The notes under the pieces were generated by a model, which saw nothing but the letters and a program-made list of their open reading frames with translations, did no database searches and had not been told where the DNA came from. The translations under genes were made by a program, and so were the position numbers. From Nitrospinota bacterium (GTDB taxonomy: Bacteria > Nitrospinota_A > UBA7883 > JACRGQ01), in NCBI GenBank assembly GCA_029881495.1, contig JAOUMJ010000001.1, positions 1-64,000 of the forward strand: DNA of 64,000 nt, given 5' to 3'. Below are positions 30,501 through 37,452 of this stretch, in pieces (position 1 is the first letter of the stretch; every line of letters starts with the position of its first letter).

Positions 30501-31542
30501 CAGTCCGCAGGACGCCATACAGGCGGCCAGGAAAATAGTGGAGGCGATCTCCCATCCATTCGTGGAGAAAGGGAATAATCTCTTTGTTACCACAAGTATC
30601 GGGATAACCGTTTTCCCGACCGACAGCGAAGATCTCAATACCCTGCTCCAGAACGCGGACCTCGCCATGTACCGCGCGAAAAAGCTGGGGAAGAATAATT
30701 ACCAGCTGTTTACCACCGAGATGAACACGAACGCCCTTGAGCGCCTCGAGATTGAAAACGATTTGCGGTTGGCCATTGACCGTCAGGAGTTCTCTCTTGT
30801 CTATCAGCCGAAGGTAAGCCTGGGAAGCGGCGAGATCATGGGAGTCGAGGTGCTTGTGAGGTGGGGGCATCCGACGAAGGGTATGGTATTGCCATCGAAG
30901 TTCATCCCCGTGGCGGAGGAGAGCGGGCTTATCCTGAATATCGGGAAGTGGGTTCTGTTCGAGGCTTGCAGACAGACAAAAGCGTGGCTCGACGCCGGTC
31001 TTCCGTCGATTATAGTTTCGGTCAATATATCTGCCGTGCAGTTCAAGAGGGGGGATCTTGTCGAATTGGTTGAGGAGGCTCTGGGCAAAACCGGCCTCCC
31101 GGCGGAAAATCTCGACCTTGAAATTACCGAGAGCCTAATTATGACCGATGTAAATTCGGCCATAGAAACGATGAAACGCCTTAACGATATGGGGGTGGAA
31201 TTGTCGATCGACGATTTTGGAACCGGTTATTCTTCTCTTGTGTATCTGAAAAAGTTCCCCATAGACACGCTGAAGATAGATCAGGCGTTTGTTCGCAATC
31301 TCACGACGGATGCAAACGACGCCGCTATCACCGATGCCGTCATCTCAATGGGGCACTCCCTCAATCTGAAGGTCGTTGCCGAAGGTGTTGAAACTGCCGC
31401 GCATCTTGAATACCTCCACAGGCAGGGCTGTGACATAATTCAGGGATACTACTTCTCGAAGCCTGTTGATGCTTCAACCTTTGAGGAGTATCTGAGAAGC
31501 GGAAAAAATCTTGAGATGGCAAGTATCGGCCGGGGTAAATAA
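27577..31542 (+). CDS. Membrane sensor with four PAS domains, GGDEF and EAL
   Basis: A 1321-aa inner-membrane protein for c-di-GMP turnover. TM1 is at residues ~12-33, followed by a ~310-residue periplasmic sensor (Cache-like by length and position), and TM2 is at ~348-367. Four PAS/PAC units follow (~380-500, ~505-625, ~630-755, ~760-880), each ending in a (V/A)TD(F/I)TDIK- or HDITER-type PAC tail. The GGDEF domain keeps GGDEF at residues 963-967. The EAL domain reads EVL at 1091-1093 and keeps downstream signatures (DDFGTGYSSL, KIDQAFV, AEGVET), so it could be active. PAS2 and PAS3 are near-duplicates of each other. Start ATG 27577 has GGAG and AGGA upstream. Net activity cannot be predicted. 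Confidence 0.93.
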   Translation: MGIFSSIGQIFKVFRSGLLTFLATLLITISLAVYTQLQVKKSVEDTVANRLTSLLASAETGYQIWAEDQKSRAYLWANTAEIASEIEELVRIASLPDIAKEKLLNSIVTHDLRHRLAPIVKKLDYFGFVVTDRNKRNIAARLDEPVLVQFDDLDDSFFNRAMAGEVVISHPKISSIALPDENGVFQKGVPTMFASSPVFNARNEVIAILSFRIRPVADFSKIFHAVRVGDSGETYAFDRNGLMLTESRFAESLREFGIIKKRSMLEVELRDPGVNLMEGERPSIPREEWPFTVMARSALGGGSGVNVAGYPDYRGVDVVGAWKWLEKYDIGIASELDKEEAFATLNVLEELIFALSVLVVVLSVAIIAIRRYARETALKDAAFRGVISSTNEGYWEIDSGRKTTVVNKALCEILGYEAEELVGRSPLDFMHESSKTEFLKKIATVSQTDHRLYEELIFIRKNGEMVYLRLSATTKRDSAGNAIGSFAFVTDFTDIKKAEDALKRSEDALLKGQKVAKMGSWDWNIITNELVWSDEIYRIFGLEPQEFGATYDAFLGSIHPDDRELVVQAVNDAVAGKKDYKVEHRVVRPNGVIRIVEEIGEVTFDLSWKPQRMIGIVHDITERKKAEEDLRRSEESLNKAQEISNTGNWGWNLFTNEMEWSDELYRIFGYEPRSVKPSYDLFINAVHSHDRDMVALKLKEAVKDRTGYKIEHRVEWLDGMERIVHMQGELVLDRRGNPVRMIGIAHDITERVKATAELTLAYNVFENVEEAIMVTDVLGVLTYVNPAFLNITGFTPEQALGCTPAMLRSQKHDKAFYEAMWKELLETGRWQGEIWNRRKDGEVYPAWLSISSISNEAGQRTQYIGVLKDITDIKRSQEEIKYQAYHDPLTGLPNRILFKDRLKQSLIHAGREKRQIAVMFLDVDNFKNINDSLGHPVGDRLLQGVGARIVGTLREMDTVSRVGGDEFTVILEDIRSPQDAIQAARKIVEAISHPFVEKGNNLFVTTSIGITVFPTDSEDLNTLLQNADLAMYRAKKLGKNNYQLFTTEMNTNALERLEIENDLRLAIDRQEFSLVYQPKVSLGSGEIMGVEVLVRWGHPTKGMVLPSKFIPVAEESGLILNIGKWVLFEACRQTKAWLDAGLPSIIVSVNISAVQFKRGDLVELVEEALGKTGLPAENLDLEITESLIMTDVNSAIETMKRLNDMGVELSIDDFGTGYSSLVYLKKFPIDTLKIDQAFVRNLTTDANDAAITDAVISMGHSLNLKVVAEGVETAAHLEYLHRQGCDIIQGYYFSKPVDASTFEEYLRSGKNLEMASIGRGK

Positions 31543-31577
31543 GCAAGAGTTTGCCAGCAGAGGCTCTCACGGGGAGA

Positions 31578-32285
31578 TCATTTCCCCTTCCGGTAAACGG
31601 AGAGCACGGCGACAGCCCCTTTTTTCCCTTCATCAGGTGAAGCTCTGTAAAGTTCCAGCAGTTCACGCTCATCCGGGGTAATCGGCTGTCCATACCCTTT
31701 TTTTCTCTCCGCGACGAGCGCGTACTCTTCCGCCGAAATTTTTCCCTGCTTGAAAAGTTTATCAGCCTCTTCGGAAGTACGCGGCCCTTCGCCGGTCATA
31801 ATCCAGTCGGAAAAGGTGTCGCCATACCCGGAGGCCCAGTAGAGGTAGCGGGGGTCGGGAGGTTTGATCCCTTTTTCAGCGTCGCGAATCCCTTGAATGG
31901 AGGTTGCCGACTCAACGGAAGCATTTTTCAGTGTCAGGTCGCCCCTTATCTGCCGAAGGCGTTTTCCTACGGCGACCAGATCCACCTCTACATCACCCCA
32001 GAATAAATTTTTGTCGAGGCTTTTCCCTCCGCTCTTAGCCGCCTGCAGAACGGCGGAAGGGAGATACCTGGCTCCTTCGCCGAGCAGAAGCCAGTTGATA
32101 TTCACGCCGAGTTTTTCCTTGATATTAATAAGGTGTTCGGAAGATGGATAGTTCTCCCGTTTTTTCCATTTGTTGATTATTCCGGGGTGTACGCCAAGAA
32201 TTTCTGCCAGCCTGTTCTCTTTTCCATCTGCGAGTTCCTCCACCAGCAGTTTGAGCCTCGACAAAAAGCCCCTTACATCACCCAC
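31578..32285 (-). CDS. Regulator with two tandem CI-type HTH domains
   Basis: A 235-aa protein starting with GTG 32285. Residues ~5-70 form a first helix-turn-helix of the phage CI/XRE kind (NRLAEILGVHPGIINKWKKRENYPSS), ending in the signature VNINWLLLGEG. Residues ~95-170 form a second, more diverged copy (SVESATSIQGIRDAEKG) ending in FSDWIMTGEG. The C-terminal ~60 residues are charged and helical with no peptidase domain, so there is no LexA-type self-cleavage. It is divergent from another CI-type gene across a 374-bp region full of operator-like repeats, and its 3' end faces the GGDEF-EAL gene. It is probably a DNA-binding repressor acting in that region. Confidence 0.8.
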   Translation of the reverse strand: MGDVRGFLSRLKLLVEELADGKENRLAEILGVHPGIINKWKKRENYPSSEHLINIKEKLGVNINWLLLGEGARYLPSAVLQAAKSGGKSLDKNLFWGDVEVDLVAVGKRLRQIRGDLTLKNASVESATSIQGIRDAEKGIKPPDPRYLYWASGYGDTFSDWIMTGEGPRTSEEADKLFKQGKISAEEYALVAERKKGYGQPITPDERELLELYRASPDEGKKGAVAVLSVYRKGK

Positions 32286-32317
32286 TTTTGCTAAATCCCC
32301 CTGCCGTCAAATTTGTT

Positions 32318-32346
32318 TTGACATATCACCATAAGGTGATTAATAT
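32318..32346 (+). promoter_or_regulatory. Strong sigma-70 promoter toward the rightward regulator
   Basis: Perfect TTGACA (32318-32323), exactly 17 bp, then TAATAT (32341-32346). It would start a ~305-nt leader in front of the 127-aa regulator. An inverted repeat occupies the spacer. Confidence 0.7.
32325..32340. promoter_or_regulatory. Operator-like inverted repeat in the promoter spacer
   Basis: ATCACC-ATAA-GGTGAT, a perfect 6-bp inverted repeat lying wholly between the -35 and -10 boxes. A dimeric repressor bound here would block RNA polymerase. The nearby CI-type regulators are the obvious candidates. Confidence 0.6.
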
Positions 32347-32361
32347 ATCGGTAATGATATA
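32344..32361. promoter_or_regulatory. Second operator-like inverted repeat
   Basis: TATATC-GGTAAT-GATATA, a perfect 6-bp inverted repeat overlapping the -10 box and the expected start site. Its half-site differs from that of the first repeat, so the two could bind different regulators. Confidence 0.45.
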
Positions 32362-32389
32362 CATGACGATAAATATATATACCGCCCGC

Positions 32390-32500
32390 GAAGCTGGTCC
32401 GCAAAAATGCCCATCCAGTATCGCCTTCGGATACGGGAAGGCGCAAAGCATGTCCGTAGCAATCATTTGGGCAATTCAATGATGTCGACCGGCTGTGCAG
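32390..32500 (+). promoter_or_regulatory. Structured leader resembling a c-di-GMP-I (GEMM) aptamer
   Basis: The exact core CGCAAAGC (32442-32449) sits where GEMM riboswitches have it. ATGC (32407-32410) can pair with GCAT (32448-32451), replacing the usual GGC/GCC pairing of the first stem by covariation. Inside is a hairpin GTATC/GATAC (32418-32422 with 32430-32434) flanked by CC and GG. A second stem ATCATT/AATGAT (32462-32467 with 32478-32483) follows, then ACCGGCTG. The usual GNRA loop and the canonical GGCAAACC are not present, so this would be a diverged member or a look-alike. It is only ~40 nt from the predicted start site and its nearest left-hand gene but one is a GGDEF-EAL protein. 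Confidence 0.3.
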
Positions 32501-32584
32501 TTGCGAATAATAGTCATGTAGTCAATTACTTGCAGGTCATAGATTACCATTTTCCGATTTATCACTCAATTATTGATATATGTC

Positions 32585-32614
32585 GATTTTCGCCGTTGCC
32601 GAAAATCACCGGCG
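32585..32614 (+). promoter_or_regulatory. Alternative hairpins in the leader
   Basis: GATTTTCG/CGAAAATC (32585-32592 with 32600-32607) is a perfect 8-bp stem. CGCCG/CGGCG (32591-32595 with 32610-32614) uses some of the same bases, so the two exclude each other. A CTTTTGTATTTT tract follows. The arrangement could serve as an expression platform for the upstream element. Confidence 0.35.
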
Positions 32615-32659
32615 AGGCGCGGGGCTTTTGTATTTTATCGGGCAGAAGAAGGGGGGAGT

Positions 32660-33043
32660 ATGGAGCAGACTTTTAAGGAGAGGCTGAGAATTTTAATGTC
32701 GCTTGAAGGTGAAGAGCGTCCGTACAGGTGGGCAAAAAAAGTGGGGATACAAAGAGGGCTTTTTCAGTACTACTGGCAAAAGGGGAAGATGCCTACATAC
32801 GAAAACCTTATAAAGATACAAAATCATTCCGGCTGTTCCATAGACTGGCTACTAACCGGGAAAACGGTAGCGTCAGATATTACAAGCCTGAAATTTGAGA
32901 AAACCGGAAAGAGCGGGGACGCCGGTAAAAGCGATTTTCTTGAAGATGTTGAGATGCTGAAAAAGATCTACAGGGAGAAGGGACGAGGCAAGAGCTATTC
33001 GATACACGACATCATTATGAAGCTTGCAGGAAATATTAAATGA
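32660..33043 (+). CDS. CI-type HTH regulator
   Basis: A 127-aa DNA-binding protein. The start ATG 32660 follows GGGGGGAG. Residues ~5-65 are a phage-CI-like helix-turn-helix (RYWAKKVGIQ-type helices: RWAKKVGIQRGLFQYYWQKGKMPT) ending in CSIDWLLTGK, the same signature as in both halves of the divergent 235-aa regulator. The C-terminal part is charged (EDVEMLKKIYREKGRGKSYS) and has no peptidase domain. It has a ~300-nt structured leader, which is unusual for a small repressor gene. The NERD-helicase gene lies convergent 50 bp downstream. Confidence 0.8.
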   Translation: MEQTFKERLRILMSLEGEERPYRWAKKVGIQRGLFQYYWQKGKMPTYENLIKIQNHSGCSIDWLLTGKTVASDITSLKFEKTGKSGDAGKSDFLEDVEMLKKIYREKGRGKSYSIHDIIMKLAGNIK

Positions 33044-33093
33044 GGAGTATCTGTTCGTGCCGCTACTCTGAGTTGTCGTAAAACAAATTCTAT

Positions 33094-34743
33094 TTATACA
33101 GACGCCTTATCCGATGCGGGGAGGAGCCGCTCAAAATCTTTCCTGTTTATATCAGACGCGAAGAGCGTAAGTTTATGCAGGGCGCGTGAGGCGCCGATAT
33201 AAAGGAGATTGCGCAAATCTGCGTCGAGAGGTACGTCGATGTCTGTAAGGATAACGGCCCTTTTTTCCAGCCCCTTGAAATCCCATATCGAACAGTAACC
33301 TGTTTTCCCTTCCTCGGTTGAGTTCGAAATCTGCTGGATAAAAACTGATTTCCATTTCTCCTCCCGGCTTAAGGCGAAAGGGGCGGAATCTTTCACCTTT
33401 TTGGCGGAGAGGATAATGATATCTTCCGGCGGCACTCCGCTGTTCAAAAGATTTTCCATGTACTCCTTCAGTTTAATTATCTCTGCTTCCTTGTCGGGGT
33501 AGAAGATTATTTCAGGCTTGGCGTCGGAATTTTTCCTTTTGATCTCGCTGTATAGCGTATGTCCGCTTTTCATTGATGCCGCGAAAGAGGCAATCTCGGA
33601 GGAATTACGGCAGTTAGTCTTTAAGGCATATCTTGTGTAATTGTTGGTGTACCGGTTCAACTCCCCTATCTTCGCCTCATTGCCGAAATCGCCCGATGCC
33701 GTATCGATAAACACTCTCCATCTCCCTTCCTTTATCCCACCATTCAGATTCGAATCAATGTACTCCAGCGCATCCAAATGGTTGAATACATCCTGGGCCT
33801 CGTCGATGATCACCAGGTCATATTTTGAATCGGAGTTGTTCCTGACGTTTATCTCCCTAAAAGCCCCCGCGGTAACCCATGGTGCGAGCATGCGGGTTTC
33901 ATTTTCGAGCATTTCCCCAAGGAGACGGCTATGGCAAACGAGAAGCATTCTTACCCCCTTCGCGGCCGCGCGCCTGGCTATCTCTATCGCAAGGAGAGTT
34001 TTACCTGTGCCGCTTGCGCCGTCGAAAAGGACCCTGTCGTTGTATTCCAGCGCATCTAGCGCGGCGAACTGCTCTTCCGTGTAGTTTTTTACCTCCTCAT
34101 CGGAGATCTTCATCTCCTCCTTGGGGCTGAGGAAAAATTCGAATCTTGGCCTTAGAGTGTTTGCTACGTCTATGCACTCCTGTTCATTTGGGAGCCTGCA
34201 CCATTCGCTGTCCTTTTTCCTTTTGAAATGCCCCCACGCCTTTTGAAGCACATTCTCGAGCAGTTTTGTTAACGGTTCACGCAGGTACATCGTTTTGTCG
34301 ATGACTTCCCACTCGTTCCACTCCGGCGAATTTTTGTTCCTGAAAATGGCGAAAGGAAATATTACGGCGTGCCAGATGAAAAGGTTCGCCAGATCCGGCC
34401 TGCTACTTTTCTGAAGCCAGTGAAGGAGGGAAAATTTCGCTTCCTTCGACTGCGCGAAGGGGCTCCGCGTGCTCCAGTGGCGGTCGGCGCCGAACTTCCA
34501 CCTGCCGTCCCTTACGATGAAGCGGTTGAATCCCTTTACTTCAAGGCAGAGTATCCCCCTGTTGGGTATTATGATAACGAAGTCCATCTCCCCCGTCCCC
34601 ATTTTTACATGCTGGGCAAGGTCGAGAGAATGAAGGACGATCCAGTTGTCAGAGTGTTTGTCCTTTTTCAGTTTTCTGAAAATTTCAATTTCGCCGTTGC
34701 TGGTCGTATCGTGGTCTATCGTGGGGGGGATCATCCTGGCCAT
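33094..34743 (-). CDS. NERD-domain and UvrD-like helicase protein
   Basis: A 549-aa protein. Residues ~10-120 are a NERD (nuclease-related) domain: GEIEIFRKL, then GEMDFVIIIPNRGILCLEVKGF, with the catalytic-type D...ExK pattern intact. From ~225 on is a superfamily-1 helicase core: the P-loop FDGASGTGKTLLAI at ~241-250, Walker B VIIDEAQD at ~311-318, an ALKTNCRNS motif (motif IV-like), and WDFKGLEKRAVILTD with GASRALHKL (motifs V/VI). It is shorter than UvrD because the accessory domains are reduced. NERD-helicase proteins occur on plasmids and in defence-related settings; here it is next to phage-type regulators. The target and function are unknown. Confidence 0.85.
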   Translation of the reverse strand: MARMIPPTIDHDTTSNGEIEIFRKLKKDKHSDNWIVLHSLDLAQHVKMGTGEMDFVIIIPNRGILCLEVKGFNRFIVRDGRWKFGADRHWSTRSPFAQSKEAKFSLLHWLQKSSRPDLANLFIWHAVIFPFAIFRNKNSPEWNEWEVIDKTMYLREPLTKLLENVLQKAWGHFKRKKDSEWCRLPNEQECIDVANTLRPRFEFFLSPKEEMKISDEEVKNYTEEQFAALDALEYNDRVLFDGASGTGKTLLAIEIARRAAAKGVRMLLVCHSRLLGEMLENETRMLAPWVTAGAFREINVRNNSDSKYDLVIIDEAQDVFNHLDALEYIDSNLNGGIKEGRWRVFIDTASGDFGNEAKIGELNRYTNNYTRYALKTNCRNSSEIASFAASMKSGHTLYSEIKRKNSDAKPEIIFYPDKEAEIIKLKEYMENLLNSGVPPEDIIILSAKKVKDSAPFALSREEKWKSVFIQQISNSTEEGKTGYCSIWDFKGLEKRAVILTDIDVPLDADLRNLLYIGASRALHKLTLFASDINRKDFERLLPASDKASV

Positions 34744-34841
34744 AACTATAATTTTAGAATATTTATGGAGCGATTGCCCTGAAAAGGGTGGATGGCAAGT
34801 GAATCGAAAAGGAAGGTTTTGCGGTTAACCGCGTTTTCAGT

Positions 34842-35765
34842 TCAGTATCCCGTCCAGAGGAAATGGAGCCCGGGGCGCGTCGCGGCAGGTTTCTTCAGTT
34901 CTCCAAGGAAGCCGAGCTCCTCCGATAAGAGTTCCTTTAGGAAGGTGAGGTCTTCCTCTTCCTTCACGATTACAGGGTCGCCCTTTATGTTTGCCATTTC
35001 GGATAGAATCTTTACCGCGTCCCGAAATGTGCCAAGCTCGTCCACCATTCCATTTTCCTTTGCCATGCGGCCGGAATAGATCCTTCCGTCGGACAGTTTT
35101 CGTACCTCTTCCATATCCATGGAACGTCCAACAGCGATGGCTTCCATGAACTGCTCGAATACGTCGTCGATGACTTCCTGCATGACTTTTCTATCCTCTT
35201 CGCTGAATCCTCTTCCAGGGGTTCCGATATCCTTGAACTTGCCGGATTTAACCGTGATGGTGTCGAGTCCCAGTTTTTCCATCAGGCCCCCTGGGTCCAT
35301 GAAGCCCATAATTACGCCGATCGACCCGGTAATTGTTCCTGGATTCGAAACTATCCTGTCGGTGGCAACCGCGATGTAATAGCCGCCGGAGGCCGCGACA
35401 GACGCCATGCTGGATACGACAGGTTTCTTTTTTCTCGCCTTGATTATCGCCTCATAGATCTCCTGGGAAGGCGCGACCCCACCGCCGGGCGTATCTATGT
35501 GTATGAGGATCCCCTTGATGGAATCCTCCTTGGCGTATTTTTCTATCTGTTTGGTGAGTTCGTCGGATTCGATTATTGGGCCGAAGACTTCAACAACGGC
35601 TATCTTGTCACGTCCAAGCGTGATCCCGTCCGTATCTGGAGTAATAAAAGGGATTACGGCTACGAGGAGGAAGAATCCGGCAACAAGGAGGAAGAGAACC
35701 GCGCACCCGCCGAATATTCTGCGGGTGCGGTTTCCTTTTTCAGCGAGGCCGTTATTCTCGCCCAT
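34842..35765 (-). CDS. sppA: Signal peptide peptidase SppA
   Basis: A 307-aa inner-membrane serine protease that degrades cleaved signal peptides, of the short (single-domain) SppA36 type. It has an N-terminal anchor at residues ~17-40 (IFGGCAVLFLLVAGFFLLVAV). The nucleophile is Ser126 (SVAASGGYYIA) and the general base is Lys178 (SGKFKDIGTP), 52 residues apart as in Bacillus SppA. DTPGGGVAPSQEIYEAI is the oxyanion region. It is last in the minus-strand cluster tyrA-cmk-rpsA-sppA, 10 bp after rpsA. Confidence 0.95.
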   Translation of the reverse strand: MGENNGLAEKGNRTRRIFGGCAVLFLLVAGFFLLVAVIPFITPDTDGITLGRDKIAVVEVFGPIIESDELTKQIEKYAKEDSIKGILIHIDTPGGGVAPSQEIYEAIIKARKKKPVVSSMASVAASGGYYIAVATDRIVSNPGTITGSIGVIMGFMDPGGLMEKLGLDTITVKSGKFKDIGTPGRGFSEEDRKVMQEVIDDVFEQFMEAIAVGRSMDMEEVRKLSDGRIYSGRMAKENGMVDELGTFRDAVKILSEMANIKGDPVIVKEEEDLTFLKELLSEELGFLGELKKPAATRPGLHFLWTGY

Positions 35766-35775
35766 TTAATTCTTG

Positions 35776-37452
35776 TTATTCTTCCTCAGGAAAATCTTCA
35801 GTTTCAAAATCTGTTTCGTCGCCCGCCCTATCGTCAATAGGACCGTCTTTCATGCTAAGCCCGATCTTCTTGCTTTCAGCGTCTACCTTGATTACCTTCA
35901 CGTCGCACTTGTTTCCCACGGTCAGCTCTTTTCTCGCGTCCGTAGCGCCGCCGGATATCTGTGAGACATGGATAAGTCCTTCAATTCCGGGTTCAATCTC
36001 GGCGAATGCTCCGAAATTGGTTACCTTCACGATGGTTGCGCTGATTTCCTGACCGATTTTATATTTATCGGCAACGCTTTCCCATGGATCCGGCTCCAGC
36101 TGTTTCAGCCCAAGCGATATCCTTTCGCCATCCTTGTCGATTTTCAGGACTTTCGCCTTAACGCGATCCTTTTTCTTCACAACCTCAGAAGGGTGCTTCA
36201 CTTTTGCGGTCCAGGACATGTCGGAGATGTGTATCAATCCGTCAACGCCATCCTCTATCTCGACAAACGCACCGAAATCGGTAAGGTTCCTGACGGTACC
36301 TTCGATAATCGTGTCGACAGGGTATCTCTCTTCGATATTTTCCCATGGGTTTGAAGAGACCTGCTTCATGCCAAGCGATATCCTTTTTCGCTCCTTGTCG
36401 ATATTAAGGACTTCCGCTTCCACGTCATCGCCGGGATTTACTATCCGGCTGGGGTGGCGTACATGTTTGCTCCATGTCATTTCAGATATATGAACGAGTC
36501 CTTCAACGCCGTTCTCAAGTTCCAGGAACGCGCCGTAATCTGTGATGGATACGACTTTACCCTTGACGTTTGTGCCTATTGAGTATTTTTCCTCAATATT
36601 TTTCCATGGATCCTCGGACTGCTGTTTCAGGCCGAGCGAAACCCTTTCCGATTCAGTGTCGAATTTAAGGACAATGACCTTAGCGCTCTGACCTACGGAG
36701 AGTATTTCAGATGGATGGTTGATCCTCCCCCACGACATATCGGTGATATGAAGAAGGCCGTCCACCCCGCCAAGGTCGATGAACGCGCCGTAATCGGTTA
36801 TGTTCTTTACGATGCCGGTGACTATCGCGCCTTCTTCGAGATTTGAGAGGGTTTCCGCCTTGGAGGCTTTTCTCTCTTCTTCGATGATCGCGCGCCTGGA
36901 GAGGACAATGTTCCCCCTCCGCTTGTTCATCTTGATTATTTTGTATTCATACTCCCGCCCCAGATATTCATCCATGTTTTTCGGCGGTCGGAGGTCGATT
37001 TGAGAACCGGGAAGAAATGCTCTAAGGCCGATATCCACGGTAAGGCCGCCCTTGATCTTCCCAATGACCTTTCCTTTTATGGTATTCCCTGCTTCGTAGA
37101 CCTTGTTGATAGCGTCCCACTTCCTTAGCCGGGCCGCTTTTTCAACGGAGAGGATCATGACCCCGTCCTGATTCTCCGTCTGGTCGATAAACACTTCAAC
37201 TGTATCGCCGATATTTACGCTATCGGCTCCGCCTGGAAATTCGAATGCCGAGATGATTCCCTCGGATTTAAAACCTACGTCAACTACAACCTTGTCGTTG
37301 GAGATGGCGATAACCGTTCCGCTGGTAACCTCCCCCTCCTTGAACAGTTTCATGCTGTTTTCATACAGCTCCTCCATCTGTTCAACGGTAAGATTTTCCT
37401 CCTCTATACCACCCGATTTTTCGGCTATAGCGCTATTGCTCTCTTTGGACAT
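35776..37452 (-). CDS. rpsA: 30S ribosomal protein S1
   Basis: A 558-aa protein with six S1 RNA-binding domains, the full proteobacterial number. Repeats 3-6 are most alike, each starting near G(A/T)VKNITDYGAF, G.V.SITDYGAFLE, GTVRNLTDFGAFVE or ATIVKVTNFGAFAE. It binds mRNA on the 30S subunit and helps initiate translation. The start ATG has a strong AGGAGG upstream. The C-terminus is acidic (DDRAGDETDFETEDFPEEE). Between cmk and sppA in one operon, as in many deltaproteobacteria. Confidence 0.97.
   Translation of the reverse strand: MSKESNSAIAEKSGGIEEENLTVEQMEELYENSMKLFKEGEVTSGTVIAISNDKVVVDVGFKSEGIISAFEFPGGADSVNIGDTVEVFIDQTENQDGVMILSVEKAARLRKWDAINKVYEAGNTIKGKVIGKIKGGLTVDIGLRAFLPGSQIDLRPPKNMDEYLGREYEYKIIKMNKRRGNIVLSRRAIIEEERKASKAETLSNLEEGAIVTGIVKNITDYGAFIDLGGVDGLLHITDMSWGRINHPSEILSVGQSAKVIVLKFDTESERVSLGLKQQSEDPWKNIEEKYSIGTNVKGKVVSITDYGAFLELENGVEGLVHISEMTWSKHVRHPSRIVNPGDDVEAEVLNIDKERKRISLGMKQVSSNPWENIEERYPVDTIIEGTVRNLTDFGAFVEIEDGVDGLIHISDMSWTAKVKHPSEVVKKKDRVKAKVLKIDKDGERISLGLKQLEPDPWESVADKYKIGQEISATIVKVTNFGAFAEIEPGIEGLIHVSQISGGATDARKELTVGNKCDVKVIKVDAESKKIGLSMKDGPIDDRAGDETDFETEDFPEEE

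Follow-up and report, generated by a model that had tools for sequence, protein, structure and literature searches.

The question raised by this locus is whether two phage-type regulators and the NERD-helicase lying next to them make up one regulated module or merely adjoin on the chromosome. In the window, i.e., the whole stretch of 64,000 nucleotides analysed here, the R1 regulator gene (31578-32285, minus strand, GTG start, 235 aa) and the R2 regulator gene (32660-33043, plus strand, ATG at 32660, 127 aa, a single HTH) diverge from a gap of 374 bp (32286-32659), and a stand-alone gene for a NERD nuclease plus SF1 helicase (33094-34743, minus strand) converges on R2, with 50 bp between the two gene ends. 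Since no terminator was found in those 50 bp, transcriptional interference between the two genes is possible. The three-gene block sits between a GGDEF-EAL gene and sppA (34842-35765, minus strand), the last gene of the core run tyrA-cmk-rpsA-sppA. A preliminary description of this DNA had the coordinates, the strands, the gap, the two divergent CI/Cro-type regulators and the convergent helicase right, and, as it also claimed, no phage structural, integrase or transposase gene stands out among the window ORFs on reading. Its view that both flanks are core loci holds for sppA, which occurs in all 11 genomes of the family and mostly beside rpsA, and is conjectural for the GGDEF-EAL gene. The region downstream of sppA differs among genomes, and a search of 31000-36000 against Rfam gave no match.

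In our reading, two independent things probably adjoin here: a self-contained regulator pair, with R1 as the likely repressor, and, unrelated to it, an orphan member of a helicase family associated with DISARM. The preliminary description had instead proposed a three-gene neighbourhood, and the search for it came out otherwise, the divergent pair being present in 8/11 family genomes versus 1/11 for the helicase (no match in the other ten), with the regulators in 0/19 helicase neighbourhoods elsewhere. Full-length R1 is encoded in three family genomes, namely this one, G003 (51% identity) and G007 (49%), and single-HTH versions in five (G001, G005, G008, G009 and G010); each of these eight genomes has an R2 gene diverging from R1. 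By ORF reading, the neighbours of the pair in the relatives are ordinary chromosomal genes, with no phage genes apparent. They vary between genera, so that no conserved target gene is apparent beside the pair. Judged from these sequences, the pair is apparently chromosomal and inherited within one Nitrospinota family. In G003 (L034:2585-3720), R1 overlaps a same-strand hemerythrin-like gene, a possible operon.

R1 matches the Pfam family Phage_CI_repr at residues 23-72 (3.7e-08). A second HTH at about residues 103-164 was missed by Pfam and is visible in an AlphaFold model, built on only eight sequences (mean pLDDT 75.5, pTM 0.46), which displays two five-helix HTH units (helices 4-68, then 103-164) and a helical C-terminal tail. 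This second half can be regarded as a separate domain, because in G001 and genus g6 there are homologues of half the length that consist of it alone. At the domain level, the first HTH resembles those of P22 c2 and 434 Cro (TM about 0.75-0.8 when scored by the target, with weak E-values), and a PDB sequence search with R1 returned nothing below E 0.04. No S24/LexA peptidase match was found in R1 or R2, in agreement with the earlier claim that neither regulator has a self-cleavage domain. The (N/D)W(L/I)(L/M)xG endings said to be shared by the three HTH units are indeed present, but they do not connect these units specifically, because other regulators of the same HTH type have similar ones, including S24-type regulators (L041-L043) and a viral contig. 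The proteins at L041, L042 and L043, from three family genomes, combine an HTH like the second one of R1 with an apparent S24-type protease domain, as read by eye.

R2 itself matches Phage_CI_repr weakly (0.0039, under the curated cut-off). R2-like genes occur in 22 of the 23 genomes of the class, at one to four copies per genome, and a search of 17 genomes outside the class found none. A scan of 84,980 species yielded 34 loci, 33 of them ascribed to class genomes already covered (records mostly labelled Nitrospinota, Nitrospinales or Nitrospinaceae, some Nitrospirae and two just bacterium) and one in Thermodesulfatator. The family thus appears nearly restricted to Nitrospinota, multi-copy and chromosomal, and its HTH, including the recognition region, is nearly invariant. 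In the paralogue tree, which has long branches, the copies associated with R1 form one clade (support 95/82, 94% of bootstraps). R2 paralogues also stand beside cheA in several class genomes (L104, L105, L108 and L109, with L080, L081 and L083 listed among the cheA/glnA cases), and another lies near glnA in G000, G006 and G001.

The gap between R1 and R2 contains a sigma-70-like promoter toward R2 (TTGACA-17-TAATAT, 32318-32346, plus strand, 10/12 matches), whose spacer holds an operator-like palindrome, ATCACCATAAGGTGAT (32325-32340). A weak promoter-like site toward R1 (32342-32369, minus strand, 9/12 matches) has its -10 element abutting the palindrome. As a class, promoter-like sites are not above chance in this control region, with 3 found versus 3.7 expected. 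A promoter-like site stands at the corresponding place in the pairs of the relatives. G003 has TTGACA-AAAGACCATATGGTCTT-TAAAAT, and a second palindrome copy lies about 31 bp off, as a second site does in G001; in genus g6, the corresponding spacer carries ACGCATATATGCGT or a close form, imperfect in G010. A palindrome within a promoter spacer, which may correspond to the lambda-type overlap of operator and promoter, is seen in the window and its relatives. It is clear in G003 and genus g6 but degenerate in G007 and G001, and each genus has its own version of the sequence. When sequences were shuffled 300 times, a promoter with a spacer palindrome as good as the observed one arose 16 times for the window, 0 for G003, 1 for G005, 0 for G009 and 43 for G010. 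G001 and G007 were not unusual in this test, and neither was G008, whose palindrome was missed because the -10 rule chose another spacing. From the window alone, the significance of the palindrome is modest (16/300). No such promoter-embedded motif was found upstream of 30 other R2-family genes; matches to ACCN4-5GGT upstream of R2 paralogues numbered two, both at one gene and outside any promoter spacer. The strict core TCACCN4GGTGA has 2 sites in the 2.82-Mb genome versus 2.7 expected by chance, so the palindrome appears local and no regulon is visible with the strict pattern. The predicted leader of the R2 transcript, about 300 nt, is longer than a simple regulator would lead one to expect, and a promoter nearer to R2 may exist.

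The best reading of these data is that the pair is autoregulated and self-contained. An R1 dimer would bind the palindrome at 32325-32340. Since this palindrome takes up the spacer of the rightward promoter and borders on the possible leftward one, R1 would silence transcription toward R2 and tune its own expression. That R1 is the repressor binding there is likely, since the palindrome accompanies the pairs that contain R1 and changes from genus to genus, while the HTH of R2 hardly varies. R2 would in turn regulate the pair itself or targets that it has in common with its paralogues. We consider it unlikely that the palindrome is bound by R2 instead, or serves an unrelated factor. R2, with its conserved HTH, should be capable of binding DNA, yet its recognition region is nearly invariant against a palindrome that varies between genera, and the absence of the motif at its paralogues makes R1 the better candidate. 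More speculatively, and with considerable doubt, R1 and R2 could form a true bistable switch, free of phage and kept by a bacterial family, that feeds a network of R2 paralogues extending across Nitrospinota and recognising a common DNA target.

This anatomy recalls the lambdoid immunity region (lambda cI/cro, P22 c2 and 434), in which divergent HTH regulators likewise surround a shared control region, with operator-like palindromes of 14-16 bp that overlap a promoter, and the P22 c2/434 Cro-type HTH fold. Unlike that region, R1 and R2 are without apparent phage genes and without a matched cleavable C-terminal domain, R1 is a two-HTH protein, the sites found number one or two rather than three, and the genes are chromosomal and apparently vertically inherited. 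The idea of a lambda-type switch kept as a stand-alone module survives in part, in its divergent regulators and its operator-like palindrome within a promoter spacer, without phage genes, but not in its tie to the helicase. Could the pair be what a prophage immunity region recently left behind in this genome after the loss of its other genes? Phage-like domain families and layout would suit such an origin, as would matches to PHROG phage regulator families (R1 at 1.6e-14, R2 at 1.9e-07) and the distant tandem-HTH relatives in viral contigs. The pair, however, has long been part of the family, with R2 copies that fall into a single clade and chromosomal neighbours that differ, and the R2 family is near-universal across the class but rare among viral contigs (only 3 hits, all weak); a recent remnant is therefore quite improbable, and R1 and R2 may have come from phage in the distant past. 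Phage-type control regions are usually taken as prophage remains, and here one is apparently an inherited chromosomal unit. Regulation in Nitrospinota has been little studied, and a limited literature search combining Nitrospinota with helix-turn-helix returned nothing on it. The parts are of known kinds, and the combination is a variant: in this small search, we found no description of a phage-free pair inherited within a family, with a tandem-HTH partner and a phylum-restricted family.

A three-gene defence module, in which R1 and R2 switch the NERD-helicase effector on and off, is the least probable of the readings and in our opinion very improbable. The three genes are adjacent here, the helicase family is tied to defence loci, and regulators that adjoin and control defence genes are known, as in BrxR and CapW (PMC9122601, PMC9122588). 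A 10-bp direct repeat, GATGGCAAGT, at 31515-31524 and 34791-34800, also brackets all three genes and would fit their joint insertion, although about 2.5% of random segment pairs share 10 bp. Against this, the pair is without the helicase in 7/8 pair-bearing genomes, and the helicase without the pair in 19/19 neighbourhoods elsewhere, some truncated by contig ends; the preliminary description had itself named helicases without the regulators as evidence against its view of the helicase as switch effector. These 19 comprise 16 genomes and three plasmids, a 17th genome (L153) having been left out as its helicase ORF was not recovered. Neither R1 nor R2 was found by blastp among the ORFs around the 16 helicases (at most four on each side), and none was apparent in the plasmid annotations. 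Furthermore, no copy of the palindrome is present at the helicase start, and R2 stands between R1 and the helicase, which converges on it. R1 and R2 do share with the controller (C) proteins of restriction-modification systems, e.g., C.AhdI, and with BrxR/CapW that they are small DNA-binding regulators by a possible defence gene and likely autoregulated; BrxR and CapW, however, are WYL-domain proteins, and R1/R2 have no defence gene as a conserved neighbour.

As a separate element, the helicase would be transcribed either from a start in the region upstream of it or through read-through from sppA. It retains intact NERD, Walker A, Walker B and UvrD C-terminal motifs (conserved residues E52, D54, E68 and K70 plus the Walker motifs), with matches to NERD at 1.4e-13 and to PADLOC RTasNERD-Hel at 2.9e-50. 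The PDB search gave nothing with the sequence alone and matches to HelD, UvrD/PcrA, SLFN and GajB with a profile; the same profile found no relative in viral contigs, though tblastn aligned the helicase with two phage records at 23-25%. With RTasNERD-Hel and the DISARM-like NERD-helicases, which lie by DrmA, DrmB and a DrmE-family gene, it shares full-length homology and the NERD plus SF1 helicase architecture. Unlike them, it is an orphan in a genome (97% complete) with no match to reverse transcriptase (PF00078) or MZB/DUF1998 (PF09369, the DrmB-type domain), and no drmA or drmB is recognisable beside it in the ORF list; the locus is therefore neither DRT nor DISARM, as far as tested. It is probably a sporadic, separate newcomer related to defence, from a family whose other members occur either singly or within DISARM-like loci. 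It groups with L152, L155 and L196 (99/98) and is 35% identical to L152. While the defence-module reading is corrected, NERD-helicases emerge as neighbours of DISARM core genes, for in 4/19 neighbourhoods (L150, L152, Rhodococcus pROB02 and Deinococcus P4) DrmA and DrmB lie directly downstream, and the gene before the L152 helicase resembles the DrmE family (73.8 bits, cut-off 80). In such loci the NERD-helicase seems to serve as an accessory to class-2-like DISARM, and the PADLOC label RTasNERD-Hel seems too narrow. The arrangement of a NERD-helicase directly upstream of DrmA-DrmB was observed at L150, L152, L196 and L197, and cytosine methyltransferases lie near two such loci, L150 and L197.
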